A stretch of DNA of 64,000 nucleotides from Linyphia triangularis (taxonomy: Eukaryota; Arthropoda; Arachnida; Araneae; Linyphiidae), in assembly GCA_963978545.1 (NCBI GenBank), contig OZ021725.1, positions 11,361,197 to 11,425,196 of the forward strand, written 5' to 3'. Below, one piece after another: positions 7,687 to 62,756 of the stretch (the stretch's first letter is position 1; every line of letters begins with the position of its first letter). The position numbers and the translations under genes are program-made. The notes below the pieces were generated by a model, which had not been told where the DNA came from, made no database searches, and saw nothing but the letters and a program-made list of their open reading frames with translations.

Positions 7687-7710
7687 AGTGCTACTGTTTA
7701 AATACTTTCT

Positions 7711-10683: not shown

Positions 10684-10696
10684 GTGCTAGTAGTAT

Positions 10697-12560: not shown

Positions 12561-12663
12561 CTTAGATTCCTGAGTGCGAAAGACGTTTATTGTGTTTGCT
12601 TAGTATTTGCTTATCGTATTTGCTGCTACTTTAGCTTTTTGCTGATTTCAACTGAATTATTCG
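12555..12663 (+). other. non-coding first exon of polB
   Basis: It runs from the expected start after the TATA box to a consensus donor, GTAAGT, at 12664. The next acceptor is TTCCAG ending at 13069, ten bases before the first ATG. Confidence 0.6.
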
Positions 12664-19617: not shown

Positions 19618-20016
19618 ATGACGTCATACCCACTGTGACGTCATTAGTAAAAATACCTATCACTCTAACTTATTCGTTTATAAGCAGCCCTAGAACAACT
19701 CAACTCCGTCTGCTAGATAAACCGAAACTAAAAAAAGTGTTGCCACCACTCAAAACTTTGATATAAAACACATTATGACGTCATTCCCACTGTGACGTCA
19801 TACACAAACAGCTTATAACGAAACCGAAACTAAAACAACAGCAGGAGGGGAACAGCTCAACTCCACTTCCGGTCACGTGACTTCCGGTGACGGCATATCC
19901 TGTGATGTCACTTCCTGTGACGTCATATCCGGTCACGCCCACTTCCGGTGACGTCATCGTCCCTCGTCCCATCCCGCATCCCGCCATGGTTTCGGACTCT
20001 CCTTTTTTTAACTACT
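19618..20016 (-). repeat. right terminal inverted repeat of the Polinton
   Basis: This is the reverse complement of 5059-5450 with few differences, ending TAACTACT at 20016. It includes the same 68-codon open frame on the minus strand (19781-19987). It has only two CRE-pair sub-repeats, against four at the left end. Confidence 0.9.
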
Positions 20017-20022
20017 ATGGCA
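20017..20022. repeat. right target-site duplication of the Polinton (ATGGCA)
   Basis: ATGGCA directly follows TAACTACT and equals the six bases at 5053-5058. Confidence 0.93.
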
Positions 20023-23117: not shown

Positions 23118-24860
23118 ACTAGGGGGCTTCGCCCCCTGCTCGCTAACGCTCGCCAACCCCCAAACGCCTCGCTGCGCTCGGATTGAGCCGCCTTGCAGCT
23201 CGAATTTGTGGTTAAAACATCTTGCTGAGCTCGAATAGGTTTGCCAGCCATAAAAAATGTAACCAAATTTTTATAAATTTAATCTAAGGCCTAATAGAGA
23301 AAAAACCCAAATTGCAAGTTTCATAATAGAAAGTTAAATATACTATCCGTCAACATTCTGACTTAAAACTTCATTAGCTATACCCTTACATTGAAGTCCC
23401 AATATCTTTTATTTATTCTGATAAGTCGCCCCATTAGAGAACGACGTCTAACGCAAAGCATTTTCTGGATAGAAATACTTCAAAATAATAATTACTCTAA
23501 TACAAAAATGCTTCAGAAAAACAGAAAAAATCAACTTTGAAACGAAGAGTTTAAAAAAAGAGCTTTAAAATTAGCAACGGGTTTGTTGTTTACATACGTA
23601 AGGGAGAACGTCGTCCAACGCGAGGCATTTTCTGGATAAAATACTTCAAAATAATAATTACTCTAAAACAAAAATGCTTCAGAAAAACAGAAAAAATCAA
23701 CTTTGAAACGAAGAGTTTAAAAAGAGCTTTAAAATTAGCAACAGGTTTGTTATTTACATACGTAAGGATAGCTTTAAAATTAGCAACGGGTTTGTTGTTT
23801 ACATATGTAAGGGAGAACGACGTCTAACGCGAGGCATTTTCTGGATAGAAATACTTCAAAATAATAATTACTCTAATACAAAAATGCTTCAGAAAAACAG
23901 AAAAAATCAACTTTGAAACGAAGAGTTTAAAAAGAGCTTTAAAATTAGCAACAGGTTTGTTATTTACATACGTAAGGATAGCTTTAAAATTAGCAACGGG
24001 TTTGTTGTTTACATATGTAAGGGAGAACGACGTCTAACGCGAGGCATTTTCTGGATAGAAATACTTCAAAATAATAATTACTCTAATACAAAAATGCTTC
24101 AGAAAAACAGAAAAAATCAACTTTGAAACGAAGAGTTTAAAAAAAGAGCTTTAAAATTAGCAACGGGTTTGTTGTTTACATACGTAAGGGAGAACGTCGT
24201 CCAACGCGAGGCATTTTCTGGATAAAATACTTCAAAATAATAATTACTCTAAAACAAAAATGCTTCAGAAAAACAGAAAAAATCAACTTTGAAACGAAGA
24301 GTTTAAAAAGAGCTTTAAAATTAGCAACAGGTTTGTTATTTACATACGTAAGGATAGCTTTAAAATTAGCAACGGGTTTGTTGTTTACATACGTAAGGGA
24401 GAACGACGTCTAACGCGAGGCATTTTCTGGATAGAAATACTTCAAAATAATAATTACTCTAATACAAAAATGCTTCAGAAAAAAAGAAAAAATCAACTTT
24501 GAAACGAAGAGTTTAAAAAAAGCTTTAAAATTAGCAACGGGTTTGTTGTTTACATAAGTAAGGATAGCTTTAAAATTAGCAACGGTTGGTTGGTTGAACC
24601 CCTGAGCAGCCGGTTTGTTGTTTACATACGTAAGGATGTTGCCAATCATATATTCAAAATCATTGAGGCTTTGTAGTAGCTTAATGATGAAAAATATTGA
24701 AATTTAACTAATTAATAAAGTGTTAATAAATTATTTTGGCACGTTTTGGCAAATTTACAGCTAATTTCCTTTAAAATAACACCTTGATCATTGAAATTGG
24801 TTGAGCAGTTTAGGCGGACGGACTAACCCCAAAAAACGTATTGCCTATTAAATATATAGA
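23118..24860. repeat. non-autonomous repeat element with GC hairpin head and 165/210-bp tandem array
   Basis: It begins with a GC-rich hairpin block (GGGGGCTTCGCCCCC at ~23121) and a CTCGCTGCGCTCGG segment. From ~23440 to 24640 a unit containing TTTTCTGGATAGAAATACTT and AACGAAGAGTTTAAAAA recurs about six times, at spacings near 165, 210, 210, 163 and 213. The longer units carry an extra ~45 bp (AGGATAGCTTTAAAATTAGC). It ends near TTGAGCAGTTTAGGCGGACG, a motif style common at the 3' ends of arthropod repeats. Class not determined. Confidence 0.6.
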
Positions 24861-36736: not shown

Positions 36737-38692
36737 ATGCAAGACCACCCTGATTTTGGAGAAAAGCCACATTCTTGTGAGATGTATGCCAAATCATTTT
36801 CACCAAAGGGTTCCCTCAGAATGCACCTCCTCACTCACACTTTAGAAAAGCCATATTCTTGTGAGATGTGTGACAAATCATTTCCACGAAAGGGACACCT
36901 CAAAAGGCATCTTCTCACTCACACTGGAGAAAAGCCATATTCTTGTGAGTTGTGTGCCAAATCGTTTTCAGATAAGGGACAAATCAAAAGGCATCTTCTC
37001 AATCACACTGGAGAAAAGCCACATTCTTGTGAGATGTGTGCCAAATCATTTCCACAAAAGGATGCCCTCAGAAAGCACCGCCTCACTCACACTGGAGAAA
37101 AGCCACACTCTTGTGATATGTGCATCAAATCATTTTCACAAAAGGGTGACCTCAGAATGCACCTCCTCACTCACACTAAAGAAAAGCCACATTCTTGTGA
37201 GATGTGTGACAAATCATTTCCACGAAAGGGACACCTCAAAAGGCATCTTCTCACTCACACTGGAGAAAAGCCATATTCTTGTGAGTTGTGTGCCCAATCG
37301 TTTTCAGATAAGGGACAAATCAAAAGGCATCTTCTCACTCACACTGGAGAAAAGCCACATTCTTGTGAGATGTGTGCCAAATCATTTCCACAAAAGGATG
37401 CCCTCAGAAAGCACCGCCTCACTCACACTGGAGAAAAGCCACACTCTTGTGATATGTGCATCAAATCATTTTCACAAAAGGGTGCCCTCAAAAGGCATCT
37501 TCTCACTCACACTGGAGAAAAGCCACATTCTTGTGAGATGTGTGCCAAATCATTTTCGCAAAAGGGTGACCTCAGAATGCACCTCCTCACTCACACTGGA
37601 GAAAAGCCACACTCTTGTGATATGTGCATCAAATCATTTTCACAAAAGGGTGCCCTCAGAATGCACCTCCTCACTCACACTAAAGAAAAGCCACATTCTT
37701 GTGATATGTGCATCAAATCATTTTCACAAAAGGGTGACCTCAGAATGCACCTCCTCACTCACACTAAAGAAAAGCCACATTCTTGTGAGATGTGTGCCAA
37801 ATCATTTTCATTGAAGTCTAACCTCAGAGTACATCTTCTCACTCACACTGGAGAAAAGCCATATTCTTGTGATATGTGCATCAAATCATTTTCGCAAAAG
37901 GGTGACCTCAGAATGCACCTCCTCACTCACACTAAAGAAAAGCCACATTCTTGTGAGATGTGTGACAAATCATTTCTACGAAAGGGACACCTCAAAAGGC
38001 ATCTTCTCACTCACACTGGAGAAAAGCCACATTCTTGTGATATGTGCATCAAATCATTTTCACAAAAGGGTGCCCTCAGAATGCACCTCCTCACTCACAC
38101 TGGAGAAAAGCCACACTCTTGTGATATGTGCATCAAATCATTTTCACAAAAGGGTGCCCTCAGAATGCACCTCCTCACTCACACTAAAGAAAAGCCACAT
38201 TCTTGTGATATGTGCATCAAATCATTTTCACAAAAGGGTGACCTCAGAATGCACCTCCTCACTCACACTAAAGAAAAGCCACATTCTTGTGAGATGTGTG
38301 CCAAATCATTTTCATTGAAGTCTAACCTCAGAGTGCATCTTCTCACTCACACTGGAGAAAAGCCACATTCTTGTGATATGTGCATCAAATCATTTTCACA
38401 AAAGGGTGACCTCAGAATGCACCTCCTCACTCACACTAAAGAAAAGCCACATTCTTGTGAGATGTGTGCCAAATCATTTTCATTGAAGTCTAACCTCAGA
38501 GTGCATCTTCTCACTCACACTGGAGAAAAGCCATATTCTTGTGAGATGTGTGCCAAATCATTTCCACAAAAGGATGCCCTCAGAAAGCACCTCCTCACTC
38601 ACACTGGAGAAAAGCCGCATTCTTGTGAGATGTGTGACAAATCATTTCCACAAAAGTGTGACCTCAGAAGGCACATTCTCACTCACACTTAA
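36737..38692 (+). CDS. C2H2 zinc-finger array protein, 23 units (651 aa)
   Basis: Putative DNA-binding transcription regulator. After a short leader it is an unbroken run of 28-residue units with TGEKP or TKEKP linkers. The first unit is degenerate (second Cys replaced by Tyr, SCEMYAKSF); the other 22 keep C-x2-C-x12-H-x3-H. Only about seven helix types occur, e.g. RKGHLKR, DKGQIKR, QKDALRK, QKGDLRM, QKGALRM and LKSNLRV. Units 2-5 and 6-8 repeat in the same order, showing block duplication. No KRAB, BTB or other effector domain is seen. The end is a TAA produced where sister units read AAA or GGA, and finger-coding sequence continues beyond it, so the protein was longer. Near-identity of units implies recent homogenisation. 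The start is the first in-frame ATG; an upstream exon is possible. Confidence 0.85.
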
Positions 38693-38728
38693 GAAAAGCC
38701 ACATTCTTGTGACATGTGCACCAAATCA

Positions 38729-40056
38729 TCTCTATATATATAAGGCAAAGCCCTCACTCACTGACTCACTCATCACTAATTCTCCCACTTCCCACATAGT
38801 CACAACTCTGAAAATCGGCACAAATATCAATAATGGTAAAAATAGAAAAAGTAAACTATTCCGATCTCGATTAACCCACTTTAAGGGGTCGAAAAGGGGT
38901 TAAACGTTCCAAACGGGGGACATTCGAAAATCCTACTTCCCACATAGTCACAACTCTGAAAATCGGCACAAATATCAACAATGGTAAAAATAGAAAAAGT
39001 AAACTATTCCTATCTCGATTAACCCACTTTAAGGGGTGGAACAGGGGTTAAACGTTCCAAACGAGGGATATTCGAATGTCCTACTTCCCCTTTCGTCACA
39101 ACTCTGAAATCTGGTGCAAGTATCAACAAAAACAAACGTATAAAAAGTAAGCTATTCCGATCTCTATTTACCCACTCTAAGAGGTCAAAAAGGGGTTAAA
39201 CGTTCCAAACGAGGGATATTCGAATGTACCACTTCCCATATGGTCACAACTCTAAAAATTGGTACAAATGTCAACAATGGTAAACATAGAAAAAGTTAGC
39301 TATTCCGATCTCGATGAACCCACTTTAAGAGGTCAAAAAGGGGTTAAACGTTCCAAACGAGCGATATAATCGAATGTCCTACTTCTCATATTTTCACAAT
39401 TCTGAAAACTGGTGTGAATATCAATAAAGACAAACGCAGAAAAAGTAAACTATTCCGATCTCGGGTGGAAAAGGGGTTAAACGTTCCAAACGAGGAATAT
39501 TCGAATGTACCACCTCCCATATGGTCACAACTCGGAAATTTGGTACAAATGTCAAAAAAGATTAAACATAGAAAAGTAAGCTATTCTGTTCTCGATTAAC
39601 CAACTTTAAGGGGTCGAGAAGGGGTTAAATGTTCCAAACGAGGGATATCCGAATGTGCCTCTTCCAATGTAGTCATTTTTCTGATATTTTTTTGCAAATG
39701 TTAAAAAAATAAGTCATTCCAATATCGATTAACGAATTTTTAAGGGATGAAAAGACGACGCAACATTGAAACTATACGAGGATTAACTTAATGTCTAATT
39801 AACTTGATTCCAATACAGCTACTACTTTGAAATTTAGAACTAAGAGCAAACATAAACACAATAAACTATTCCAGTTTACTATTCACAATTATAAATTTCG
39901 TTTAAAATGTCAACAAAGGAAAGTTCCTATTTTGATAAATCAATTTGTCGGGATCGAAATGGGAGCAAACGTCTGAAGTGTAGAATACATGAATGTCTTT
40001 TGATCGCTAAAATGCTAATGGTAAAATTTCGTAGCGCAGCACGGGTATTCAGCTAG
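38729..40056 (+). mobile_element. non-autonomous Helitron (1,328 bp) inserted in the zinc-finger gene
   Basis: It starts TCTCTATATATATAAGGC and ends TATTCAGCTAG, followed by T, with a GCGCAGCACGGG segment just inside the end: the TC...CTRR pattern of Helitrons. It lies exactly between A 38728 and T 40057 with no duplication. Joining its flanks restores a normal finger (KSF across the junction). Internally, ~148-bp units (CACAACTCTGAAAATCGG, then GGGGTTAAACGTTCCAAACG) repeat six to seven times. There is no Rep/helicase. Confidence 0.9.
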
Positions 40057-45780: not shown

Positions 45781-47731
45781 GAACTATTACATAGGGCTGA
45801 TTTAATTTAACGTCAAGGTTAATACATATAGCTAGAAAAAATGTATGTATGTGTATTAGGGTGGGGCGAAAAAACTTTTTTTCGATATCGGTTTTGGCAT
45901 AGAGCGGAAAAGTTGCTTAATATGTAAAAAAAAATCACTTTTAAACCATTTTTTGGATGTAATTTTTAAAAACCGCCATTGGCATAGCATGGAATAGTTG
46001 CCTAATATGTCAGTTAAAACCCACAAAAGATTTCGTGCCCCTCTTGCTTTGTGGAAAAATGTATCTAAATCGTAGCACCCCCACTCCCCGCTCCTCCTCC
46101 CCCCCCCCCCCAGACAGGCGCCTTTGCCCTCATAGGAAATACTACTGCTCCCTATATTTGTTGTGTTACAACCTTCTACCGCAGTTCATTAAAAAACTAC
46201 TTGGTAAAAAACCTTGACATTTGGTGAGTAGGTACGATGTAATGAAATGACATGAAATAAAAACTCGCAAATAGTGTCAAATATATTTTATGTATTTGAA
46301 ATTCTGTAATGTCTATGCAGTAGTGCCATCTGCAGTTGTCAGGGGTTTTTTGTTTTTTTTAATTTTCATTTATAATTGATGAATACAACTGAGGACTAGG
46401 AAGGGAAAACGACTTAAGTCCAAAAGAGGAAACGTTTCAGGAGAGCCGAAAAATGAAAAACACACGTATCTGGTACTTGAGGATAGGATTAAGGACCAGA
46501 TTGAATTTGAACTATTTCTACTGGAATTCGCACTTTGAGCGTTCTCTACTTTGTTTAGCCTGGTTTTTAGGACATTTTTCCGTAAAAAAAAAAAGATTTT
46601 CGATTTTTTTTTGGGGGGGTACTTAGGTCGTCTTCCAATCTTAGTCCTCAATTTATGTCATTTTATTAAGTGATAATTTTTGCACGGACTCGCCAAGTTT
46701 CAAAGATTTATACAAAGTAGTTTCTAAATAATGTATCACATAAAAATAAGGTTTTTAATATAAATCCTTTATATGCATTTCTAATTTTTACATTTATTAA
46801 CATAGCGCCGTTTCTGTTGTCAGCTTGTGCTTGGTGTTGACGTCAAATTTTAAATATTAAAAATACCTCTATCAGCAAAATATGCTGTAAACAAGTTTTC
46901 AAAATTTCTTCATTAAAAATTAATCTAAATTTATGCATTCACATCAACACATATTTTATTTATTCTGATTAAAACAATTTAATTATTTACTTGCTTGCTT
47001 ATTTATTCACACAATTTTGGCAACAGGAAAAAGTTCCTTCATTGATTGGTTAATTGCTATTTCAGCTGGATTGGCTGACGGTAATTTGGTTTATTTGCAT
47101 TCAGTAAAGCCGACCTTTTAGTGACAGCCCCTCAAATTAGACAGAATGCCTTTTCGAATCTATTTGCCAAGTTCCAGCACGTTTGGATGACGGCAATTGG
47201 ATTAATTAGGCCACCGAAGATTTGCCCACATACACACAAACAAAATCGAAGTTAATATAAAAAGATTTCATGTACTGGGCTTGAAGATTGTAACACGTAG
47301 AGAGTATTGGGCAATTATTAAAACAACATATACTGTATGAACTTAAAGTATTTCACTTTTCCTGCTTCTTGTAAATCTCCGAAGACATCCCAATTGTTTA
47401 ATCGACTGGACTGACTATATCGCAATCGTCCACCATGGGATATTCCCAGTAATAACCATATATTTATCATAAGTATGTACTCATATAATATAACAATCTA
47501 GCAGTAATTTTATGATTGATGGGATATTTTATTACAGTTTATTCGCTTTGGCCTTTACCGCTTTTATGGTATAATTTTAAAATCAAGACATCAAATTTAC
47601 ATTTGCTCGGATATTTTATTTATTTTTTTCTGAATTTTTTTTTTATTGTTAAATAAATTATTTTTTGATGTTATACATTTTTTAATTGATATTTATTTTT
47701 TAATTTAGCTTTTATAAAGACATAATTCTGC
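45781..47731. other. non-coding, no gene recognised
   Basis: It includes TTAGGGTGGGGCGAAAAAAC near 45856, which resembles a TIR but has no proven partner, and a C-run near 46098-46110. No coding region is supported. Confidence 0.5.
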
Positions 47732-47737
47732 TAGGGG
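47732..47737. repeat. left target-site duplication of the palindromic element (TAGGGG)
   Basis: TAGGGG precedes AGTAGTTAG and recurs at 62384-62389, directly after CTAACTACT. Confidence 0.92.
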
Positions 47738-48500
47738 AGTAGTTAGAAAGTGGGGCTCCGAAGCCATGGCGCAGCGCGCAGAAGGACGGGGGACGATGAC
47801 GTCACCGGAAGGGGGCGTGACCGGATATGACGTCACCGGAAGGGGCGTGGTCGGATATGACGTCACCGGAAGTCACGTGACCGGAAGTGGAGTGGAGTTG
47901 TTTCCCTCCTGCTGCTGTTTTAGTTTCGGTTTCGTTATAAGCTGTTTGTGTATGACGTCACAGTGGGTATGACGTCATAATGTGTTTTATATCAAAGTTT
48001 AGAGCGATGGCAACACTTTTTAGTTCCGATTTACCTTTAAGATGGAGTTGAGTTGTTCTAGGACTGCTTGTAAATGAATAAGTTAGAGTGATAGGTTTTT
48101 ATTGCGTGACGTCACAGTAGGTATGACGTCATAACTTGCTTAACGTTAAAAGTTTTGAGCGGTGGCAACACTTTTTAGTTTTGATTTACCTTTAAGGCGG
48201 AGTTGAATTGTTCTAGGGCTGCTTCTAAGTGAATAAGTTAGAGTTATAGGTATTTTTTACTAGTGACGTCACAGTGGGTATGACGTCATTCATGATTTTA
48301 CAAAACTTACCTTTAAGACGATGGCAGCAATAGAAATATGCTAAGTTTTAGGCGGGATGGAGTTGAGTTGTTTTAGGGCTACTTTTAAGTGAATAACTTA
48401 GAGTGATAGGCTGTTTTACCAGTGACGTCACAGTGTTAATGTAGTGGGGATGACGTCACGATTTGCTTTATATCAAAGTTTAAGGAATGGCAACATCTTG
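47738..48500 (+). repeat. terminal promoter-like repeat, left end of the palindromic element
   Basis: GC-rich outer segment with TGACGTCA, CCGGAAG and TCACGTGACC words, then four sub-repeats whose CRE pairs begin at 47953, 48117, 48264 and 48423. Homologous to the Polinton TIR, and includes the same 68-codon frame (47766-47972). Confidence 0.9.
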
Positions 48501-49739
48501 TATCCTGATATATAGCTAAGTCTCCTTTGATTGGTTGAAATAAAAGCTCACTTCTGATTGGTTAGAATATGTCACGTGATTTCAAATGCTCTTCTCATTG
48601 ACTATACAGTTTAGTAAGACAGTTTTCTACTAAGTTTAATGTAATTGCGGCGCCATCTAGTGGTAGGAAGGAATATAAATTACATAGTTTATAACTTTTC
48701 ATGCTTAACCATTAAAAACTTCAAATACATGCAAAGATAATATACTAACACAAATGCGTAAAGTTTCGGATTGAGTGGATTTTTTTTTTCTATAAGTGCT
48801 TAACACATTTAAACTAATGTTGAGAGATATAATCGCAAGACACTTTTAAGGAATCAGGTTTAATCAATGTTAGACACATAAAGTCTCATTATTTTCTCAA
48901 TAACAGTATGAAATGTAAATATAAATTAAAATTTATGAGAAAAAAAAAATTTAAACTTTGATATCTTAACGTGAAAATTTCTTTTACAGAGCTTAACATT
49001 TCATTAAAAAGTTTTTTTATTTTATTGTCATAGTTTTTGAGGGATTGAATACACAACAAAAGAACTTAGACTAGAATTAATTTTCAATATTCAGCAACTG
49101 AAACCCATTATGGAAGTTAAAGCAATGATTTTACAATTATTTTTAGGTTGAGTTAGTCTGACCCTGTTGAAGGAATTAGTAGTTGTAGTGTGTTCACACG
49201 TGAGTTTGCAATACAATATTAGTAATATTCATTTCCAAAAAACGAAATATTTATCACTTTGAATAGAAAAATGACGATTTTTTTTTTTATTTATGTAAGT
49301 ATTATTCTCAATTTTGTAAATTTTAAATGTATTATCCATATTTTATTGAAGAATTTATATTTTTTTTCTTCTTCTTTCAGAATGGTTTAGGAAAAACATT
49401 TCATTTTAGTCAGAACAATGTTTTCAAAGAGATGGAAATACGCAACTTTTCGATATATCAACCTTCAAATATTTTGAAATTGATTCTATTTGTTACAACC
49501 GGTTGTAATTTAAAGCTATACTGTACTATGCGAGCGATATTATATATCTTAGCTACTTACTGTCTATGTTAAAATTTATATTACCATTAAACTTGTTAGA
49601 AATTAATATGTCTATGTTAGTTATATTAATCAAGATAGTTTTTATTGTACAATGATACTTACTTAAATTGATGAATGGCAACACAGAACTAGCTGCTAAT
49701 GCTGAATAGATATGTGATAACTGATTTTGGATACTCTAA

Positions 49740-51140
49740 TGTTTAAATAAGAGAGAAAAAGTAACATACTTGAACATCTTACAACTAAGAATTCAAAAGT
49801 GAACATGAAAATTTACTTTACGAATAAATATCATGTCTTTAAAATGTGTACGAATATCACTAAATAAGAGAAAAAAGTAACATACTTAAACTCTTTACGA
49901 CAAATAACTTTAAAATTAACGAAAAAAAACTTACTTTACACATAAAAATCACTTTAAAATGTGTAAAAATATTGCTAAATAAGAGAAAAAAGTAGCTTAC
50001 TTAAAATTTCTAAGATAAATATTTAACCTTTACGCGAAAATTCCCTTCATGTATAAAAATCACGACTTTAAAATATAACATGCAAGAGAAAAGTAACGTA
50101 CTTAAACTTTCTACGACAAATAACTTTAACATTAACGTAAAATTTTACTTTACACATAAAAATCCCGATATTAAAATATGTAGAAATATCGCTAAATAAA
50201 AGAAAAAAAGTAACACACTTAAACTTTGTACGACAAATAACTTTGACATTAACGTAAAAAATGTTCTTCACATATAAAAATCACGACTTTAAATTTGAAA
50301 TGTAGGATGAAAGTATAACATACCTATAATTTCTACGACAAAGAATTCAAACATTGCCGTTCATGTCTTTAAAATGTATAATGATAACTAACTTTTAGAA
50401 AAAAGAAACACTAAAAATTTACAAGGCAAAGAATTTAAAATTGAACGTTAAAATTAACTTTACATGTACTATCATACTCTTATATCAACGATAAATAAGA
50501 TAAAAAAAAGAAACTCTAAAAATTTATAAGGCAAAGAATTCAAATAATACGCGAAAATTTACCTCACATATAAAAATTATGTCTTTCAAATGTGTAAGAA
50601 TAACGCTAAATTAGAGAAAAAGAAATATTAAAAATTTATAAGGTAAGGAATTGAAACAATACGCGAAAATTTATTTCACACATAACATTTTTATCTTTAA
50701 AATGTGTAAGAATAATGCTAAATTAGAGAAGAAAAAAAATAACATACTTAAACTTTCTTCGACAACAATTTAAACAATACGCGAAAATTTCATACACAAT
50801 TATTTTCTTAGGTTAATGTTAAATAATGGGAAATTTAACAGAATAAAAATTTCAAAGATAAAGAATTTTAACCTTTACACGAAAATTTACTTCATATATA
50901 AATATCATGTCTTTAAACTTTAACGTGACAATTTACTTCTCATATACAATTAAACTCTTAGGTTAATGTTAAATAAAAGAAAAAGTAACATACTCAAAAA
51001 TTTCTAAGATAAGCATAACGTAAAAATTTCATATCATGTGTTTAAAATGTAACATATAAGAGAAAAAAAATAACATACTTGAACTTTCTATAGCAAAGAA
51101 TTTAAGCGTTAGCGTAAAAATTTACTTTACATATAAAATT
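49740..51140 (+). repeat. degenerate ~114-bp tandem array, left arm
   Basis: About twelve diverged units with AAATAAGAGAAAAAAGTAAC, TACTTAAACTTTCTACGAC and TTTACTTTACACATAAAAAT. The AGAGAAAAA word recurs near 49749, 49863, 49979 and 50083. Mirrored at 58980-60380. Confidence 0.8.
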
Positions 51141-51150
51141 CACGTCTTTA

Positions 51151-51222
51151 AACGGGATGATAAGCATGTGACGGTAATTAGCCAATCAGGTTAGCGGTAG
51201 GTGATACGCCACTTGCCGGCAT
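51151..51222 (-). promoter_or_regulatory. relic of the polB promoter, left arm
   Basis: On the minus strand it reads AACCTGATTGGCTAATT, then GTCACATG and ATCATCCC. The Polinton polB promoter (12461-12522) has AACCTGATTGGTCGGTG, GTCACGTG and ATCACCCC at the same spacing, and CTACCG sits just upstream in both. Transcription would point outward, towards the element end, as polB does in the intact element. Confidence 0.7.
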
Positions 51223-53529
51223 TTTTAGACCGGAGGATGAGTCACGCTAAAACTTGTTCAAACAGGTCGGGAGACTTGTACAGCAAGAACAACAGCATCG
51301 ACGCGCAAGCAGCGGGTGATGCTGCGGTGTGTCAGCAGGTCTTCGAGATTGTCGTTTTCCTACTTTTCCTTTTTCATAATGAAATGTTTGTGAAAACTTG
51401 GAATGAATGAAGTGGATTTCAAAGACACATTAGTAAGTGAAGGTAGAATTCGCATGGACTTTCTTCCAAAAAGTATGATTCACTTGGAGAATTTAAGATC
51501 ATTTCTACTTGAAAACTTTTCTATTGTCTAAAACATTGAATATTGCTCAAACTCAGTGAGGTTATATGCTACAATACGGGTAAAACTTAACAAAATTATT
51601 ACATAGAAGAAAAATAGTAAGAGATTTAAAATAAATACTAGTTATAGATACTCCAAGGAAAAAAATTCACCTCTACTTTTCAATCGGAAAATCAATGCAA
51701 GTTGGAAATTTATGTTACTTCAAGAAAGACTTAGACAATTTACTTTGTAATAATATACGTTAAGGTGTCGTATTAACTCGTGCAATACATGCTGACTAAG
51801 GTTTATTTTACTTATCTAAGAAAGGTGAATTGGGGGAAAATATTAAATAAATTGTAGATATTAAATACATTGTAGATATGCATTTAAGTTTTGAAAATCA
51901 CCTGCAAGACTTTTAAAACATCTTAAGATAAATTGAAAGAAACTTGGGAATTATATGTAAACTATATAACTTTTTATACTCTGAAAGGAAATCACAAGTA
52001 ATTTAGTTAACTTTTTTCATGGTAACACTCATATTCAACGACATATTTTTAAAATTTAACCTTCTTTACATGATAATAGTTATAAATTTTTTCAATCTCA
52101 GATGCGATATACTATTATTTCTAACATATATGTTACGAATTGTGTAAAGTTTTTAAAACTGTATATGCAAATCACCAATCAGAAACATAAAAATCTAACA
52201 TCAATCAAACAAACTAAAATAATAAGATATTTTCCTTAGTGGAAATAGTTAACTACTCATGTGATGGAATATACTTAGAAAATTTAAATACTGAAAAAAG
52301 TTTGCTAGGCAAACTTAAAGAATATTTTTTTTTTTCTTGTGAAAAACTAGCATAAATTTGGAAAATGTAGAGTTTGTTACTACGTAAAATTGAACATCAT
52401 CTGGACAAACTAAATTATACATGAATTTTTTTTTTTATTTGAGAGGTGCTGACAATATATCATTAATATAGAGATTTTTAACTTCCACCCATAATTTCTA
52501 AATAACTTATACATAAATTTCAGAAAAACTGAAACGGAATGTGTTTTACAAGAGGCTTATTTTGTAAGATGAATATTCAATATTAATATAACTGAGCAAA
52601 GTTCATTCCGGAAAAAACTTGTAAAAGATACTTATATTTTGAAAATAGTTTGAAATATCCTTTTAAATTTATGAATGCTCGCTTTCGAAAGACACAAATA
52701 AAACTGATATTACTCATGATAATTAACACATACATAACATTAGTCAAACAAAGTGAAATTTTTATTGCTTGTGACCGATAACTTGTCAGTGAAGCAGAAC
52801 TTACATAGGAAATTTGTGCAAACTTTTTCAACTTTTAAACCAAGTATCATGTAAAATTATAAATTACGATAGGAAATAGCATACTTCAGAATCGGAACAA
52901 GTCTTGTAGTTAAGCTAAATGTATTTCTCAAGGAATTGAAAGCATACCAGAGAAGTCCTTATCATTTCGCATCTTTTCTCATGTTGCAAGAAGACATACT
53001 TTGTAAAAGATCGTCTTAGCACTTAACAAAAATCAGTAAAAATAAATATATTTTCTATGGCAAAGATAAAACTTCACAACTTAATTACTTAAATTTAGCT
53101 AAGTTGCATATGGTTTATTCACATAACTCGCATGTGCTTTGAATATTGAAATATATTTGTCAGTTGAAATCAAACTCATCGAAAATAAATGCTATCTACA
53201 TTTTCAAGTCGGAAATTACTATTAAATAAACTTTACATGTAAGACATTATCATGTTAAAAAGAAAAATCTACAAAAATGTAAATGATAATTTTACTGTTG
53301 GTACATAAATGATGAATAATTTATGATTTTATTCTAGGCAAACGTTTTATTGTCTAACAGAGAACTTAAACTTTAGCAGAAAAACGAAAAAATACAATTT
53401 TTATATCCTATCATGCTTGCCGAAAATTGAATTTATTAGCTGTTGTAATAGATTTTTATTGTCCAAATTTCTATAGTTCTTCCCAGTGCAATAATATTAA
53501 GTTCATGTGTAATGAGTAGGTTTTTTTTT

Positions 53530-54146
53530 TTTGTTGAATCTTATAAATTTAGAAATTATTATGACCTAAGAGATTGAGTGAACTGAATAAATCAATGACG
53601 TAAATTTAAACAGGGACTTGAACTGATATACATACTATAACTGTAAAGAAGTATGACAAAGTGATAGATGAAGTGAAAATAGAAGTTGAGTAAAATGTGT
53701 TGAAAAAAGTTGAAGACGACAAGAAATTCATAAATGAGAATTATCATTGACTTATATTAACTTCGTTTTTCTTGCTTATGACAAGAAAATACACTCTTGT
53801 TTATTAAGAACCAACTTGATATCTTATCATAGAATGACAATGATGAAATATCTATACATTAAAAAAAATACCAAACTTAGACATAGCAAATTTCTTGAAA
53901 TTCATGTATAATGTGAGAAGTTTTACTGGAAATATAGAAGATACAACATTGAAAGATGTGAATGTTTCGAAGTACTTTATCAGAAATAAAAAAAATAAAA
54001 ATGCGCTGAGGTCCGCTATAAAATTTTTTAGGAGAAAGTTTAAACAAAATTTAAAATCAAACATGCTTTTAAGTGGGAACACATATATTAAAACTATAGC
54101 ACATTTAACCATTTATATTATGTCATCTCAGTTGGTATCAAACTGA
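53530..54146 (+). pseudogene. relic of the 224-aa Polinton late gene, left arm
   Basis: Nucleotide similarity to 6014-6688 (read on the minus strand) runs most of its length: TTGAGTGAACTGAATAA against TTAGTGAGCTTGATAA; TTGATATCTTATCAT against CTGATATCTTATCAT; AAAATACCAAACT in both; TGAAAGATGTGAATGTT against TGAAAGATTTAAATGTT. Stops and indels break most of it; the last 83 codons (53895-54146) are still open and show MYN, LKDVNV and FIRNKK at the places of MYN, LKDLNV and FIGNKK. Its 3' end faces the palindrome centre, 914 bp away. Confidence 0.85.
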
Positions 54147-55029
54147 ATAATATGAAAAACAACCACAAACTGAATAAACATGAAAATTATCAATATATGT
54201 GGAAAAGTTTCCTTTTTTCACATATAAAAAAAAATAACACATTGACATACGTTAAGATCACGAAACATGCGTAATCATATACCGATAAGAGCAACCAATG
54301 TTGCGGGGAGATATTCACGTGATGGACAATATCCCATGAATAAATTGAGTGATTTAATTTATAATGCTAAATCCAATAGTATTCCACGTAACTTCAACTT
54401 TATATGTTACACTATAGATATATTTATTTTTCAAATATATTGACTTTCGAAAAATCATCCTTCAATATAAGAATGATCATAGTAAGAATAAAAGAAAAGA
54501 TACTAAGTATTGATTTAAAGTGTATTTATTTCAACTTAGCAACAAATCATATGCGTGAAACGAAAATTGCCTCGAACCAAAGTATAACTATCCAATTTCA
54601 TTGATTCCTACAAGGAAATTTTTCTCATCTAGTAATTGATTTTTTTTTCTCGTACACATTATAAGTGTTGTCCAATCAGGTGTAGAATAGCTGAAGATAT
54701 CCGACCTCTTTCTAAATATTACTAAGTCACTGTTGAAAAACTTATAAAAATTTCAATTTACACTTAAAGTTTTTTTTATATATATATATTTCAAAGAATT
54801 TTTTCAAATCAATATGTATATTTAAATACTGAAACTTATTCACTTCAATAAATGTATGTTTAAGTTATAAAACTTGTCGTATGTATTGAAAAATTGTAAC
54901 TTTTCGTCTTCGTATAAATCGATAACTTATACACTAGTTCTTCATCAATTAATCTTCTAAGTAAATCTTTCAAAGGTAAAAACATACCTATAGCTTTGCA
55001 TTTGTAACAAGTTAGATTGTACATGTTTC

Positions 55030-55091
55030 TAGTGAAATTAAAATTTTATATGTTTTTCATAAAAATATATAAAATTTTGTAACTTTCACAT
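55030..55091. other. 62-nt loop at the palindrome centre
   Basis: It separates GTTTC (ending 55029) from GAAAC (starting 55092). The loop itself is only partly symmetrical (GTGAAATTAAAATTTTATA against TATAAAATTTTGTAACTTTC), so the centre is an imperfect hairpin, not a clean mirror point. Confidence 0.85.
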
Positions 55092-55973
55092 GAAACATGT
55101 ACAATCTAACTTGTTACAAATGCAAAGCTATTGGTATGTTTTTACCTTTGAAAGATTTACTTAGAAGATTAATTGATGAAGAACTAGTGTATAAGTTATC
55201 GATTTATACGAAGACGAAAAGTTACAATTTTTCAATACATACGACAAGTTTTATAACTTAAACATACATTTATTGAAGTGAATAAGTTTCAGTATTTAAA
55301 TATACATATTGATTTGAAAAAATTCTTTGAAATATATATATATAAAAAAACTTTAAGTGTAAATTGAAATTTTTATAAGTTTTTCAACAGTGACTTAGTA
55401 ATATTTAGAAAGAGGTCGGATATCTTCAGCTATTCTACACCTGATTGGACAACACTTATAATGTGTACGAGAAAAAAAAATCAATTACTAGATGAGAAAA
55501 ATTTCCTTGTAGGAATCAATGAAATTGGATAGTTATACTTTGGTTCGAGGCAATTTTCGTTTCACGCATATGATTTGTTGCTAAGTTGAAATAAATACAC
55601 TTTAAATCAATACTTAGTATCTTTTCTTTTATTCTTACTATGATCATTCTTATATTGAAGGATGATTTTTCGAAAGTCAATATATTTGAAAAATAAATAT
55701 ATCTATAGTGTAACATATAAAGTTGAAGTTACGTGGAATACTATTGGATTTAGCATTATAAATTAAATCACTCAATTTATTCATGGGATATTGTCCATCA
55801 CGTGAATATCTCCCCGCAACATTGGTTGCTCTTATCGGTATATGATTACGCATGTTTCGTGATCTTAACGTATGTCAATGTGTTATTTTTTTTTATATGT
55901 GAAAAAAGGAAACTTTTCCACATATATTGATAATTTTCATGTTTATTCAGTTTGTGGTTGTTTTTCATATTAT

Positions 55974-56590
55974 TCAGTTTGATACCAACTGAGATGACAT
56001 AATATAAATGGTTAAATGTGCTATAGTTTTAATATATGTGTTCCCACTTAAAAGCATGTTTGATTTTAAATTTTGTTTAAACTTTCTCCTAAAAAATTTT
56101 ATAGCGGACCTCAGCGCATTTTTATTTTTTTTATTTCTGATAAAGTACTTCGAAACATTCACATCTTTCAATGTTGTATCTTCTATATTTCCAGTAAAAC
56201 TTCTCACATTATACATGAATTTCAAGAAATTTGCTATGTCTAAGTTTGGTATTTTTTTTAATGTATAGATATTTCATCATTGTCATTCTATGATAAGATA
56301 TCAAGTTGGTTCTTAATAAACAAGAGTGTATTTTCTTGTCATAAGCAAGAAAAACGAAGTTAATATAAGTCAATGATAATTCTCATTTATGAATTTCTTG
56401 TCGTCTTCAACTTTTTTCAACACATTTTACTCAACTTCTATTTTCACTTCATCTATCACTTTGTCATACTTCTTTACAGTTATAGTATGTATATCAGTTC
56501 AAGTCCCTGTTTAAATTTACGTCATTGATTTATTCAGTTCACTCAATCTCTTAGGTCATAATAATTTCTAAATTTATAAGATTCAACAAA
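55974..56590 (-). pseudogene. relic of the 224-aa Polinton late gene, right arm
   Basis: Mirror copy of 53530-54146; the open 83-codon remnant (55974-56225) encodes the same peptide. Confidence 0.85.
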
Positions 56591-58897
56591 AAAAAAAAAC
56601 CTACTCATTACACATGAACTTAATATTATTGCACTGGGAAGAACTATAGAAATTTGGACAATAAAAATCTATTACAACAGCTAATAAATTCAATTTTCGG
56701 CAAGCATGATAGGATATAAAAATTGTATTTTTTCGTTTTTCTGCTAAAGTTTAAGTTCTCTGTTAGACAATAAAACGTTTGCCTAGAATAAAATCATAAA
56801 TTATTCATCATTTATGTACCAACAGTAAAATTATCATTTACATTTTTGTAGATTTTTCTTTTTAACATGATAATGTCTTACATGTAAAGTTTATTTAATA
56901 GTAATTTCCGACTTGAAAATGTAGATAGCATTTATTTTCGATGAGTTTGATTTCAACTGACAAATATATTTCAATATTCAAAGCACATGCGAGTTATGTG
57001 AATAAACCATATGCAACTTAGCTAAATTTAAGTAATTAAGTTGTGAAGTTTTATCTTTGCCATAGAAAATATATTTATTTTTACTGATTTTTGTTAAGTG
57101 CTAAGACGATCTTTTACAAAGTATGTCTTCTTGCAACATGAGAAAAGATGCGAAATGATAAGGACTTCTCTGGTATGCTTTCAATTCCTTGAGAAATACA
57201 TTTAGCTTAACTACAAGACTTGTTCCGATTCTGAAGTATGCTATTTCCTATCGTAATTTATAATTTTACATGATACTTGGTTTAAAAGTTGAAAAAGTTT
57301 GCACAAATTTCCTATGTAAGTTCTGCTTCACTGACAAGTTATCGGTCACAAGCAATAAAAATTTCACTTTGTTTGACTAATGTTATGTATGTGTTAATTA
57401 TCATGAGTAATATCAGTTTTATTTGTGTCTTTCGAAAGCGAGCATTCATAAATTTAAAAGGATATTTCAAACTATTTTCAAAATATAAGTATCTTTTACA
57501 AGTTTTTTCCGGAATGAACTTTGCTCAGTTATATTAATATTGAATATTCATCTTACAAAATAAGCCTCTTGTAAAACACATTCCGTTTCAGTTTTTCTGA
57601 AATTTATGTATAAGTTATTTAGAAATTATGGGTGGAAGTTAAAAATCTCTATATTAATGATATATTGTCAGCACCTCTCAAATAAAAAAAAAAATTCATG
57701 TATAATTTAGTTTGTCCAGATGATGTTCAATTTTACGTAGTAACAAACTCTACATTTTCCAAATTTATGCTAGTTTTTCACAAGAAAAAAAAAAATATTC
57801 TTTAAGTTTGCCTAGCAAACTTTTTTCAGTATTTAAATTTTCTAAGTATATTCCATCACATGAGTAGTTAACTATTTCCACTAAGGAAAATATCTTATTA
57901 TTTTAGTTTGTTTGATTGATGTTAGATTTTTATGTTTCTGATTGGTGATTTGCATATACAGTTTTAAAAACTTTACACAATTCGTAACATATATGTTAGA
58001 AATAATAGTATATCGCATCTGAGATTGAAAAAATTTATAACTATTATCATGTAAAGAAGGTTAAATTTTAAAAATATGTCGTTGAATATGAGTGTTACCA
58101 TGAAAAAAGTTAACTAAATTACTTGTGATTTCCTTTCAGAGTATAAAAAGTTATATAGTTTACATATAATTCCCAAGTTTCTTTCAATTTATCTTAAGAT
58201 GTTTTAAAAGTCTTGCAGGTGATTTTCAAAACTTAAATGCATATCTACAATGTATTTAATATCTACAATTTATTTAATATTTTCCCCCAATTCACCTTTC
58301 TTAGATAAGTAAAATAAACCTTAGTCAGCATGTATTGCACGAGTTAATACGACACCTTAACGTATATTATTACAAAGTAAATTGTCTAAGTCTTTCTTGA
58401 AGTAACATAAATTTCCAACTTGCATTGATTTTCCGATTGAAAAGTAGAGGTGAATTTTTTTCCTTGGAGTATCTATAACTAGTATTTATTTTAAATCTCT
58501 TACTATTTTTCTTCTATGTAACAATTTTGTTAAGTTTTACCCGTATTGTAGCATATAACCTCACTGAGTTTGAGCAATATTCAATGTTTTAGACAATAGA
58601 AAAGTTTTCAAGTAGAAATGATCTTAAATTCTCCAAGTGAATCATACTTTTTGGAAGAAAGTCCATGCGAATTCTACCTTCACTTACTAATGTGTCTTTG
58701 AAATCCACTTCATTCATTCCAAGTTTTCACAAACATTTCATTATGAAAAAGGAAAAGTAGGAAAACGACAATCTCGAAGACCTGCTGACACACCGCAGCA
58801 TCACCCGCTGCTTGCGCGTCGATGCTGTTGTTCTTGCTGTACAAGTCTCCCGACCTGTTTGAACAAGTTTTAGCGTGACTCATCCTCCGGTCTAAAA

Positions 58898-58969
58898 ATG
58901 CCGGCAAGTGGCGTATCACCTACCGCTAACCTGATTGGCTAATTACCGTCACATGCTTATCATCCCGTT
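58898..58969 (+). promoter_or_regulatory. relic of the polB promoter, right arm
   Basis: Mirror copy of 51151-51222, pointing outward to the right end. Confidence 0.7.
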
Positions 58970-58979
58970 TAAAGACGTG

Positions 58980-60380
58980 AATTTTATATGTAAAGTAAAT
59001 TTTTACGCTAACGCTTAAATTCTTTGCTATAGAAAGTTCAAGTATGTTATTTTTTTTCTCTTATATGTTACATTTTAAACACATGATATGAAATTTTTAC
59101 GTTATGCTTATCTTAGAAATTTTTGAGTATGTTACTTTTTCTTTTATTTAACATTAACCTAAGAGTTTAATTGTATATGAGAAGTAAATTGTCACGTTAA
59201 AGTTTAAAGACATGATATTTATATATGAAGTAAATTTTCGTGTAAAGGTTAAAATTCTTTATCTTTGAAATTTTTATTCTGTTAAATTTCCCATTATTTA
59301 ACATTAACCTAAGAAAATAATTGTGTATGAAATTTTCGCGTATTGTTTAAATTGTTGTCGAAGAAAGTTTAAGTATGTTATTTTTTTTCTTCTCTAATTT
59401 AGCATTATTCTTACACATTTTAAAGATAAAAATGTTATGTGTGAAATAAATTTTCGCGTATTGTTTCAATTCCTTACCTTATAAATTTTTAATATTTCTT
59501 TTTCTCTAATTTAGCGTTATTCTTACACATTTGAAAGACATAATTTTTATATGTGAGGTAAATTTTCGCGTATTATTTGAATTCTTTGCCTTATAAATTT
59601 TTAGAGTTTCTTTTTTTTATCTTATTTATCGTTGATATAAGAGTATGATAGTACATGTAAAGTTAATTTTAACGTTCAATTTTAAATTCTTTGCCTTGTA
59701 AATTTTTAGTGTTTCTTTTTTCTAAAAGTTAGTTATCATTATACATTTTAAAGACATGAACGGCAATGTTTGAATTCTTTGTCGTAGAAATTATAGGTAT
59801 GTTATACTTTCATCCTACATTTCAAATTTAAAGTCGTGATTTTTATATGTGAAGAACATTTTTTACGTTAATGTCAAAGTTATTTGTCGTACAAAGTTTA
59901 AGTGTGTTACTTTTTTTCTTTTATTTAGCGATATTTCTACATATTTTAATATCGGGATTTTTATGTGTAAAGTAAAATTTTACGTTAATGTTAAAGTTAT
60001 TTGTCGTAGAAAGTTTAAGTACGTTACTTTTCTCTTGCATGTTATATTTTAAAGTCGTGATTTTTATACATGAAGGGAATTTTCGCGTAAAGGTTAAATA
60101 TTTATCTTAGAAATTTTAAGTAAGCTACTTTTTTCTCTTATTTAGCAATATTTTTACACATTTTAAAGTGATTTTTATGTGTAAAGTAAGTTTTTTTTCG
60201 TTAATTTTAAAGTTATTTGTCGTAAAGAGTTTAAGTATGTTACTTTTTTCTCTTATTTAGTGATATTCGTACACATTTTAAAGACATGATATTTATTCGT
60301 AAAGTAAATTTTCATGTTCACTTTTGAATTCTTAGTTGTAAGATGTTCAAGTATGTTACTTTTTCTCTCTTATTTAAACA
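58980..60380 (-). repeat. degenerate ~114-bp tandem array, right arm
   Basis: Mirror copy of 49740-51140. Confidence 0.8.
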
Positions 60381-61620
60381 TTAGAGTATCCAAAATCAGT
60401 TATCACATATCTATTCAGCATTAGCAGCTAGTTCTGTGTTGCCATTCATCAATTTAAGTAAGTATCATTGTACAATAAAAACTATCTTGATTAATATAAC
60501 TAACATAGACATATTAATTTCTAACAAGTTTAATGGTAATATAAATTTTAACATAGACAGTAAGTAGCTAAGATATATAATATCGCTCGCATAGTACAGT
60601 ATAGCTTTAAATTACAACCGGTTGTAACAAATAGAATCAATTTCAAAATATTTGAAGGTTGATATATCGAAAAGTTGCGTATTTCCATCTCTTTGAAAAC
60701 ATTGTTCTGACTAAAATGAAATGTTTTTCCTAAACCATTCTGAAAGAAGAAGAAAAAAAATATAAATTCTTCAATAAAATATGGATAATACATTTAAAAT
60801 TTACAAAATTGAGAATAATACTTACATAAATAAAAAAAAAAATCGTCATTTTTCTATTCAAAGTGATAAATATTTCGTTTTTTGGAAATGAATATTACTA
60901 ATATTGTATTGCAAACTCACGTGTGAACACACTACAACTACTAATTCCTTCAACAGGGTCAGACTAACTCAACCTAAAAATAATTGTAAAATCATTGCTT
61001 TAACTTCCATAATGGGTTTCAGTTGCTGAATATTGAAAATTAATTCTAGTCTAAGTTCTTTTGTTGTGTATTCAATCCCTCAAAAACTATGACAATAAAA
61101 TAAAAAAACTTTTTAATGAAATGTTAAGCTCTGTAAAAGAAATTTTCACGTTAAGATATCAAAGTTTAAATTTTTTTTTTCTCATAAATTTTAATTTATA
61201 TTTACATTTCATACTGTTATTGAGAAAATAATGAGACTTTATGTGTCTAACATTGATTAAACCTGATTCCTTAAAAGTGTCTTGCGATTATATCTCTCAA
61301 CATTAGTTTAAATGTGTTAAGCACTTATAGAAAAAAAAAAATCCACTCAATCCGAAACTTTACGCATTTGTGTTAGTATATTATCTTTGCATGTATTTGA
61401 AGTTTTTAATGGTTAAGCATGAAAAGTTATAAACTATGTAATTTATATTCCTTCCTACCACTAGATGGCGCCGCAATTACATTAAACTTAGTAGAAAACT
61501 GTCTTACTAAACTGTATAGTCAATGAGAAGAGCATTTGAAATCACGTGACATATTCTAACCAATCAGAAGTGAGCTTTTATTTCAACCAATCAAAGGAGA
61601 CTTAGCTATATATCAGGATA

Positions 61621-62383
61621 CAAGATGTTGCCATTCCTTAAACTTTGATATAAAGCAAATCGTGACGTCATCCCCACTACATTAACACTGTGACGTCACT
61701 GGTAAAACAGCCTATCACTCTAAGTTATTCACTTAAAAGTAGCCCTAAAACAACTCAACTCCATCCCGCCTAAAACTTAGCATATTTCTATTGCTGCCAT
61801 CGTCTTAAAGGTAAGTTTTGTAAAATCATGAATGACGTCATACCCACTGTGACGTCACTAGTAAAAAATACCTATAACTCTAACTTATTCACTTAGAAGC
61901 AGCCCTAGAACAATTCAACTCCGCCTTAAAGGTAAATCAAAACTAAAAAGTGTTGCCACCGCTCAAAACTTTTAACGTTAAGCAAGTTATGACGTCATAC
62001 CTACTGTGACGTCACGCAATAAAAACCTATCACTCTAACTTATTCATTTACAAGCAGTCCTAGAACAACTCAACTCCATCTTAAAGGTAAATCGGAACTA
62101 AAAAGTGTTGCCATCGCTCTAAACTTTGATATAAAACACATTATGACGTCATACCCACTGTGACGTCATACACAAACAGCTTATAACGAAACCGAAACTA
62201 AAACAGCAGCAGGAGGGAAACAACTCCACTCCACTTCCGGTCACGTGACTTCCGGTGACGTCATATCCGACCACGCCCCTTCCGGTGACGTCATATCCGG
62301 TCACGCCCCCTTCCGGTGACGTCATCGTCCCCCGTCCTTCTGCGCGCTGCGCCATGGCTTCGGAGCCCCACTTTCTAACTACT
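61621..62383 (-). repeat. terminal promoter-like repeat, right end of the palindromic element
   Basis: Mirror copy of 47738-48500, including the 68-codon frame at 62149-62355. Confidence 0.9.
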
Positions 62384-62389
62384 TAGGGG
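62384..62389. repeat. right target-site duplication of the palindromic element (TAGGGG)
   Basis: Equals 47732-47737. Beyond it the flank (CGCTATCAGG) is unrelated to the left flank. Confidence 0.92.
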
Positions 62390-62756
62390 CGCTATCAGGC
62401 GATAGTGTTCTGAAACAAAATGATAGACTGGAACTATTAATAATAGATTTTAAAATTAAATGGAAACACCTATAAAAATTTATTTCTAAAAAAATTAATA
62501 GAGTTAAAGAAATAATTAATTCACATTGCAGAAAAAATAATTCGAAAAGATCCGTGCAATAGCAAATTCAGTGGCGTGATTTTAAAGTTATAGTATAACC
62601 AGTATAGAGAGAAAAATGACAGGTACCAGAAATCATTTGGTGGCGAAATTTTGAAGTAGTGTTGACGTTAACTTTTACCCTCCACTAATGTAGAAGTAAT
62701 CTTATAAATAGCCTCTGTCCGTGTGTCTGAAGTCATTGACGTTGCCACGTTAGCCT
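62390..62756. other. non-coding flank
   Basis: No gene recognised; upstream part of the Tc1-like relic may start within it. Confidence 0.45.

Follow-up and report, generated by a model that had tools for sequence, protein, structure and literature searches.

The 14,646-bp palindrome (length without target site duplications) analysed here is best interpreted, with a probability of about 0.7, as an insertion belonging to a non-autonomous family derived from Polintons, which is carried as a palindrome: a non-coding satellite that would be copied and integrated in trans, each copy presumably arising from a single arm that snaps back at the central loop. It lies in a 64,000-nt stretch of Linyphia triangularis DNA (GCA_963978545.1, contig OZ021725.1, forward strand, positions 11,361,197-11,425,196), called the window in the following. 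Polintons and the inverted dimers in adenovirus vector stocks are already known; here the palindrome is a mobile family with equal-armed copies.

Table 1. Features of the palindrome and of the related Polinton (window positions; TSD, target site duplication)
Feature	Position	Strand	Remark
TSD ATGGCA of window Polinton	5053-5058 and 20017-20022		
Polinton, 14,958 bp	5059-20016	.	a relative; matches to integrase, packaging ATPase and adenovirus-type protease
TSD TAGGGG, left	47732-47737	.	sequence comparison
Left arm, 7,292 bp	47738-55029	+	arm-arm alignment
Polinton-type terminal region, left	47738-48441	+	15/30-bp and 155-bp repeats, mosaic between copies; 82% to Polinton 5059-5753
Decayed Polinton gene, left arm	53559-54062	+	relative of ORF 6017-6688; in-frame stops
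60-bp zone adjoining loop	54970-55029	+	holds inter-arm substitutions common to at least two of nine copies
Asymmetric loop, 62 nt, imperfect stem	55030-55091	.	same in 22/22 centres compared, either orientation
Mirror of 60-bp zone	55092-55151	-	
Right arm, 7,292 bp	55092-62383	-	reverse complement of left arm; arm-arm alignment
Decayed Polinton gene, right arm	56058-56561	-	arms identical over it
Polinton-type terminal region, right	61680-62383	-	same region as at left end
TSD TAGGGG, right	62384-62389	.	sequence comparison

An earlier, sequence-only reading of the window had described 7,292-bp arms differing by two homopolymer indels and one substitution, a 62-nt partly symmetrical loop, and TAGGGG on both sides, with flanks that differ outside this duplication. 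Alignment of the two arms (7,289 of 7,293 columns identical) bore out the arm length and the indels, which are of one base each and fall in T runs (48780/61341 and 54770/55350), but gave two substitutions (51598/58522 and 54989/55132) instead of one. The size of the loop and the imperfect stem were confirmed, TAGGGG was found at both ends (Table 1), and the mirroring stops at the flanks, whose first 50 bp have an ungapped identity of 22%. An ORF scan of the arm found no ORF of at least 100 aa, and there were no Rfam matches anywhere in the 64-kb window.

The relationship to Polintons is evident from the ends: the tips of the palindrome are AGTAGTTA, and in blastn the terminal ~700 bp are 82% alike to the window Polinton. 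The match of the ends to a Polinton terminal repeat, as first read from the letters, thus stands; that this Polinton is intact is not secured, its sole polymerase match being below the Pfam cut-off in a 183-aa ORF, which sits between two longer ORFs without polymerase match. As in non-autonomous Polinton derivatives, Polinton terminal sequence is present at both ends and a 6-bp TSD at 12 of the 13 end-pairs examined. The genes of an autonomous Polinton (PolB, integrase, capsid) were not recognized inside: in comparison with the ORFs of the window Polinton only one decayed gene piece stands out, and the other Polinton ORFs gave, among the matches listed, weak tblastn matches to the arm, like those to the reversed control arm. 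Viral contigs scanned with the integrase and with the family of the decayed gene yielded no relative. Because the gene remnant lies ~1 kb from the centre, as in the window Polinton, the centre was first taken for a former left tip; this was rejected, the inner 1 kb being without terminal-repeat similarity in blastn. The terminal regions are mosaic (458 of 1,225 site pairs failed the four-gamete test, vs 17 of 1,176 in the rest), despite which the outer 60 bp are equal at both ends in each of nine copies.

The sequence-only reading had asked for a search of the same genome for further copies with new 6-bp duplications, and such copies were found. In two genome searches the best 40 of 3,014 and the best 40 of 1,536 candidates were scored, therefore old or odd copies are under-sampled; the best-scored matches were grouped by hand into 52 elements (27 in the first search, 28 in the second, three common), and 37 of these showed a palindrome centre. 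The loop comparison covers 22 of the 27 first-search elements. A 23rd centre has a 1.36-kb deletion and retains half of the loop next to it; one of the remaining elements was read only as far as the loop and two had no match at the expected place. The second search gave, beyond the three common ones, ten elements with inverted inner arms 139-187 bp apart, and 14 without a paired arm, five of which were read past the loop. None of the elements with a read centre was a monomer (an arm running on past the centre) and, with neither monomer nor parent element found, the first fold-back is undocumented; an autonomous partner was likewise not found. Both ends were read in 13 elements: in 12 of them a matching 6-bp TSD joins unlike flanks, and the 12 TSDs are all different. 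In one copy the mirroring extends into the flanks (299 of 300 aligned columns agree), as would be expected if that locus was duplicated in inverted orientation or wrongly assembled. The whole-arm alignment comprises nine of the 13 end-pairs; the other four are a copy interrupted by a 5.7-kb insertion, the rearranged copy that has mirrored flanks, and two of which the full sequence was not retrieved. By match coordinates, eight of the nine complete copies are 14.64-14.68 kb long and one is 15.27 kb; one copy has a ~310-bp length change on both arms (7,601 and 7,602).

The same asymmetric loop is present in all 22 compared centres; 13 have it in one orientation and 9 in the opposite one, and a single centre has lost part of the loop edge. 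Its stem score was reached by none of 2,000 62-mers drawn from the arm. That a single asymmetric loop is common to 22 centres implies that the palindrome is older than these copies and moved as a palindrome; with the separate TSDs between unlike flanks in 12 of 13 end-pairs, it upholds the original claim that a giant inverted dimer had entered the chromosome as a single unit. Inter-arm substitutions shared by at least two of the nine copies occupy four alignment columns, all within 60 bp of the loop, and the same test gave no shared gap columns between the arms. When the 22 centres were oriented by the loop, one of these four columns read A/G in 10 and G/A in none. Outside this rim, two or three copies have short indels in common positions, namely one T run and one TA repeat. 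The width of the rim is not always 60 bp, since a copy outside the nine has five inter-arm substitutions 104-230 bp from the loop, adjoining a one-arm insertion; the outer 2.4 kb of this copy differ at just 1 of 2,393 positions.

Over the whole arm, the nine fully read copies show an arm divergence of 0.014-0.096% within a copy vs 0.18-1.54% between copies (roughly 3-7% between copies in the outer 2.4 kb). The two arms of one copy are sisters in 9 of 9 cases, both arms agree in all nine copies at 107 of 113 informative sites, and of the sites with private variants 126 have the variant on both arms, 19 on a single arm. An apparently old copy (TSD TGGGGT) has an arm divergence of 3.06% (45/1,472), the matching stretch having 0-2 arm-arm substitutions in the nine copies, and this favours equalisation at transposition over later conversion. 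The outermost 300 bp of the old copy hold 20 differences, which may reflect exchange of ends rather than drift, and the next four 300-bp bins hold 25 in 1,161. Another older centre differs between the arms at 4 of 134 bases beyond 60 bp from the loop. Two more older centres (36/165 with 32 gap columns and 4/16 with 10 gap columns beyond 60 bp) were left unused, they are probably misaligned at deletions.

We propose that the palindrome replicates outside the chromosome, with a Polinton supplying the integrase and the protein-primed polymerase in trans. A growing or displaced strand would copy one arm, pass the loop, snap back on the imperfect central stem ~60 nt beyond the loop and go on to copy its own arm. 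The new molecule would in this way contain one arm twice, in inverted orientation and with equal ends, and would be inserted as a unit by the integrase.

Equal arms could also be obtained without snap-back, if the element replicated via a self-complementary strand and host mismatch repair equalised the arms of the hairpin before integration. Protein-primed strand displacement, established for adenovirus, would set such strands free, and near-equal arms with a preserved loop asymmetry would follow; by itself, however, this route leaves unexplained the ~60-bp zone with old differences beside the loop, as well as the ~310-bp length change present on both arms of one copy, and we consider it unlikely. 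Less probable still is gene conversion in the integrated state, in the style of Y-chromosome palindromes, with daughters inheriting equal arms from converted masters. The near-identity of the arms in the nine complete copies agrees with it and conversion, too, could spare the loop edge, but the old copy has diverged arms and a still perfect TSD, the other older centre differs well beyond the rim, and private one-arm differences, a 14-bp indel among them, stay unconverted. Drawn from few old copies, these observations lower the probability of in-place conversion.

To the remaining explanations we give hardly any weight. An ordinary Polinton at the window locus could have been turned into a palindrome by two template switches, a central fold-back and then a jump between the terminal repeats, which would likewise leave unique flanks and TSD intact, yet this loop and these arms are also present elsewhere in the genome, between different TSDs. 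An assembly or missing-adapter artefact is scarcely credible either: one related locus does have mirrored flanks, but at 12 of 13 end-pairs matching TSDs join unlike flanks and each arm-aligned copy has variants of its own, and own TSDs together with a shared asymmetric loop are beyond what an assembly mirror would produce. Fold-back is easy in linear protein-primed replicons, which would suit repeated, independent formation from monomers; the common loop and junction in every centre compared, and the lack of monomers among the elements with a read centre, make this extremely improbable.

It is instructive to compare the palindrome with known systems. Vertebrate Mavericks have AGTAGT...ACTACT ends and 6-bp TSDs (PMC8097293). 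The palindrome shares such ends and TSDs with Polintons/Mavericks (Polintoviruses), along with the remnant of one Polinton gene, but differs from them in that its arm has no ORF of at least 100 aa and that it consists of two equal arms, the second repeating the first. Helper-dependent adenovirus vectors that are undersized give rise to inverted dimers in vector stocks, whereas our palindrome sits in the genome and has been passed on through many insertions. A further comparison is the yeast hairpin plasmid (Kikuchi et al., 1985). This plasmid descends from protein-primed linear plasmids; it is extrachromosomal and is not known to have an integrase, unlike the integrated palindrome. The imperfect stem at the centre resembles the repeats of ODIRA, but ODIRA works on host DNA, which is amplified and integrated by homology, while the palindrome is a mobile element bounded by TSDs, with ends and a duplication length (6 bp) that suggest an integrase. 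Non-autonomous Foldback/Galileo copies are, like this family, built of long inverted repeats, and TIR extension is a further parallel (PMC3573991). Galileo belongs to the P superfamily, with TIRs of up to ~1.26 kb and 7-bp sequences at the ends of its copies (PMC3573991); the palindrome, with its 7.3-kb arms, Polinton ends and 6-bp TSDs, lacks P-type ends and TSDs. No palindromic Polinton was present among the listed matches in the open-licence PMC literature, judged by titles and abstract beginnings.

The lengths of the palindrome and the window Polinton are close (14,646 vs 14,958 bp), and this size match, with one Polinton only, suggests by analogy with adenovirus packaging that full-length DNA may be selected. 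A more specific version of our interpretation, which we hold tentatively and consider rather doubtful, is that the palindrome is an inherited genome-length inverted dimer, a Polinton satellite rebuilt in each round from one arm by snap-back at the conserved loop and kept near full Polinton length because it is carried in Polinton capsids.

Instability would be expected of giant perfect palindromes, yet this family has multiplied. If it is true that the arms start equal and then drift apart, each copy carries its own clock, like the long terminal repeats in retrotransposons. To our knowledge, the replication mechanism of Polintons is known solely as inferred from their genes, and the record at the loop edge would be a fossil of this mechanism. 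The similarity in length makes the formation of Polinton particles testable: if particles form, encapsidated palindromes are expected. A capsid-borne, inherited dimer would, if true, be the endogenous equivalent of the inverted dimers of adenovirus and would speak indirectly for Polinton virions.

The alignment of the two arms of the palindrome yielded 7,289 identical columns out of 7,293; the differences are two substitutions and two indels of one base each. Thus the near-perfect arms, the loop and the two indels described in the sequence-only reading stood, while its single substitution had to be raised to two. The stem score of the loop was reached by none of 2,000 control 62-mers drawn from the arm. 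TAGGGG flanks the palindrome on both sides and the mirrored identity of the flanks is 22% (ungapped, first 50 bp), in agreement with the earlier statement that the flanks differ outside the duplication. The joined flanks form an inverted repeat around the insertion point. Given its offset and its divergence, we rejected the interpretation that it is an extension of the palindrome; it seems to be an older short inverted-repeat element, in the middle of which the palindrome inserted.

Features of the window (positions are window coordinates)
Feature	Position	Length	Remarks
Polinton	5059-20016	14,958 bp	TSD ATGGCA
Polinton with its two TSDs, inserted in a gypsy-like pol frame	5053-20022		pol frame open across the joined flanks
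Higher-order tandem repeat	23437-24592		periods 166, 210, 376 bp; 94-97% matches
C2H2 zinc fingers	36757-38729		22 fingers, 84-bp period, one 651-aa ORF
Inverted repeat of the joined flanks	47564-47682 and 62474-62598	127 bp	69%
Left arm	47738-55029	7,292 bp	reverse complement of right arm
Decayed Polinton gene	53559-54062		left arm; in-frame stops; tblastn 3e-15; profile match
Loop	55030-55091	62 nt	imperfect stem
Right arm	55092-62383	7,292 bp	reverse complement of left arm
Decayed Polinton gene, mirror copy	56058-56561		right arm; in-frame stops

A Polinton terminal region occupies the outer 700 bp of the arm and is 82% alike to its counterpart in the window's Polinton; this bears out the reported match of the ends. 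The same Polinton had been called intact, which is doubtful for its polymerase frame: the sole polymerase match was below cut-off and fell in a 183-aa ORF, and there was none in the two longer ORFs on either side, therefore the element counts at most as putatively active. It also has a chromodomain and gave an integrase-core match (1.7e-7, 31.9 bits, just below the Pfam cut-off of 32.6) as well as matches to adenovirus protease and packaging ATPase. Among the 120 integrase relatives listed of 2,488, the best named were four entries from the orb-weaver Araneus ventricosus (64-71%), followed by other spiders and also an ant entry at 65%; the host is probably a spider. The gypsy-like pol frame that the Polinton interrupts runs for 332 codons across the joined flanks, with the join at codon 300, and then meets a stop. 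The arm interior of the palindrome has a G+C content of 26% and no stop-to-stop frame of at least 100 aa. Its decayed gene, a relative of the Polinton gene adjoining the left end, carries exactly equal damage in both arms; at E ≤0.001 the family of this gene has 14 relatives in a set of 1,087 candidates, and no function is named for any of them.

Other copies of the same arms with new 6-bp duplications, whose search the sequence-only reading had proposed, were found in the genome. The outer 963 bp gave at least 49 matches, corresponding to 27 elements, and in 13 of these both ends were present in inverted orientation. The inner 891 bp gave at least 41 matches, corresponding to 28 elements; 12 of these appeared as inverted pairs with a spacing of 139-187 bp. 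With three elements common to both searches this makes at least 52; the grouping of matches into elements is our own, and the true number is probably higher because only the best 40 candidates were scored (of 3,014 for the outer and 1,536 for the inner query). Since the outer query represented one end only, it did not select for palindromes. A palindrome centre was assigned to 37 of the 52 elements: it was visible in 22 of the 27 elements from the outer query, deduced from spacing in 10 further pairs, and present in all five unpaired elements read past the loop. Of the other 15, one retains half of the loop next to a central deletion of 1.36 kb, and the remaining 14 include elements whose reading ended at the loop and elements with no match where the centre was expected. 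No monomer was found among the elements whose centre was read. Two palindromes (loci L063 and L064, G000:C4:77.90-77.92 Mb) must overlap or be nested, because their left ends, which lie on one strand, are separated by only 13.2 kb.

Matching 6-bp TSDs were present at 12 of the 13 end-pairs, and all 12 were different (TAGGGG, GATAAA, AATAAG, TACAGG, CACACT, GTGAGG, GCTAGT, AAAGTT, GATATA and TATTTT at ten, ACCGTC and TGGGGT at the remaining two). Their flanks are unlike, with a mirrored identity of 0.46-0.56 in ten (forced global alignment) and 117/234 and 110/229 columns in the other two. At the 13th end-pair (loci L047 and L048) the host flanks are mirrored, in 299 of 300 columns beside the element and over at least 1.4 kb in all, which reflects either an inverted duplication around the palindrome or an assembly error; this element lacks about 3.7 kb of one arm. 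The asymmetric loop was the same in all 22 centres compared, 13 in one orientation and 9 in the other, one having lost a piece beside the loop. This common loop shows that a single palindrome-forming event was ancestral to these copies and that they inserted already folded. Together with the TSDs, it upholds the earlier proposal of an inverted dimer inserted as one unit.

In young copies the arms are nearly equal. Across the nine fully read copies, arm divergence was 0.014-0.096% within and 0.18-1.54% between copies, the two arms of each copy were sisters in the tree (9/9), and both arms agreed in all nine at 107 of 113 informative sites. Private variants occupied both arms at 126 sites and one arm at 19; of the gap runs, 51 were in the same state on the two arms in each copy and 18 were not, and in one copy each arm was longer by about 310 bp (7,601 and 7,602 bp). 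Two of the six non-agreeing sites were private one-arm changes coinciding with another copy's allele. The other four, common to two to five copies, lay at most 60 bp from the loop, and no other alignment column had an inter-arm substitution in at least two of the nine; this zone held 16 of the 34 inter-arm substitutions. One of these four sites, scored relative to the loop in the 22 centres, was A/G in 10, G/A in none, G/G in 8, A/A in 2 and readable on a single side in 2. In the multiple alignment no gap column had an inter-arm difference common to at least two of the nine; pairwise alignments did show short indels recurring at one T run and one TA repeat.

Snap-back copying fits these observations best. 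Synthesis would start at one terminal repeat, copy one arm, pass through the loop and continue for about 60 nt beyond it; the strand would then fold on the central stem and use its own arm as template as far as the end. In the product the arms would match down to the final base, the loop would be unchanged and a rim of about 60 bp would not be equalised. The enzymes would presumably be those encoded by Polintons. The closest rival is a hairpin intermediate, whose arms would be equalised by mismatch repair. Eight of the nine complete copies measured 14.64-14.68 kb and one 15.27 kb (from match coordinates), against 14.96 kb for the window's Polinton; this parallel is suggestive, but it is based on one Polinton and could be explained by descent alone.

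Equalisation seems to occur at transposition and to be followed by drift of the integrated copies, as indicated by the diverged arms of an old copy. Over 1,472 bp the arms of this copy (TSD TGGGGT) diverge by 3.06%, a stretch with 0-2 substitutions in the nine; we call the copy old because its distance to every one of the nine is 4.2-6.1% and because a piece of 1.36 kb next to its loop is missing. Its inter-arm differences number 20 in the outermost 300 bp and 25/1,161 in the next four bins, and end exchange may have added to drift in the former. In one misfit, a copy that is not among the nine, five substitutions lie at a distance of 104-230 bp from the loop and adjoin a G+C-rich one-arm insertion at about 255 bp, although its outer arms have a single difference in 2,393. 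Some copies have deletions beside the loop or insertions in one arm. One-arm insertions were seen at loci L049, L050 and L077 (5.7 kb in one copy, G+C-rich in another), and two copies (L059, L078) are without part of one arm beside the loop. Palindromes resolved by deletion are expected to lose the arm part next to the loop.

In the outer 1 kb the four-gamete test failed for 458 of 1,225 informative site pairs, while in the rest it failed for 17 of 1,176, and at least one tip begins like that of the Polinton. The outer 60 bp were nevertheless equal at both ends of each copy (9/9), therefore exchange between elements seems to precede equalisation, an order compatible with a common replication pool. 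One copy (loci L016 and L054) has a Polinton-like left tip and a right end only 87% alike to the window arm; its ends are possibly unequal.

ODIRA provides a tested precedent for inverted dimers, which start there at short interrupted repeats (PMC4689423). Galileo is a precedent for non-autonomous elements built of long inverted repeats, which there reach about 1.26 kb (PMC3573991). A word search for 'palindrom' gave no hit in the main text of a giant-transposon review (PMC6431247) or of a vertebrate Maverick paper (PMC8097293). The sequence-only reading knew of no palindromic Polinton derivative, and there was none either among the papers listed by our literature searches. If proved, the replication cycle proposed here would be new.
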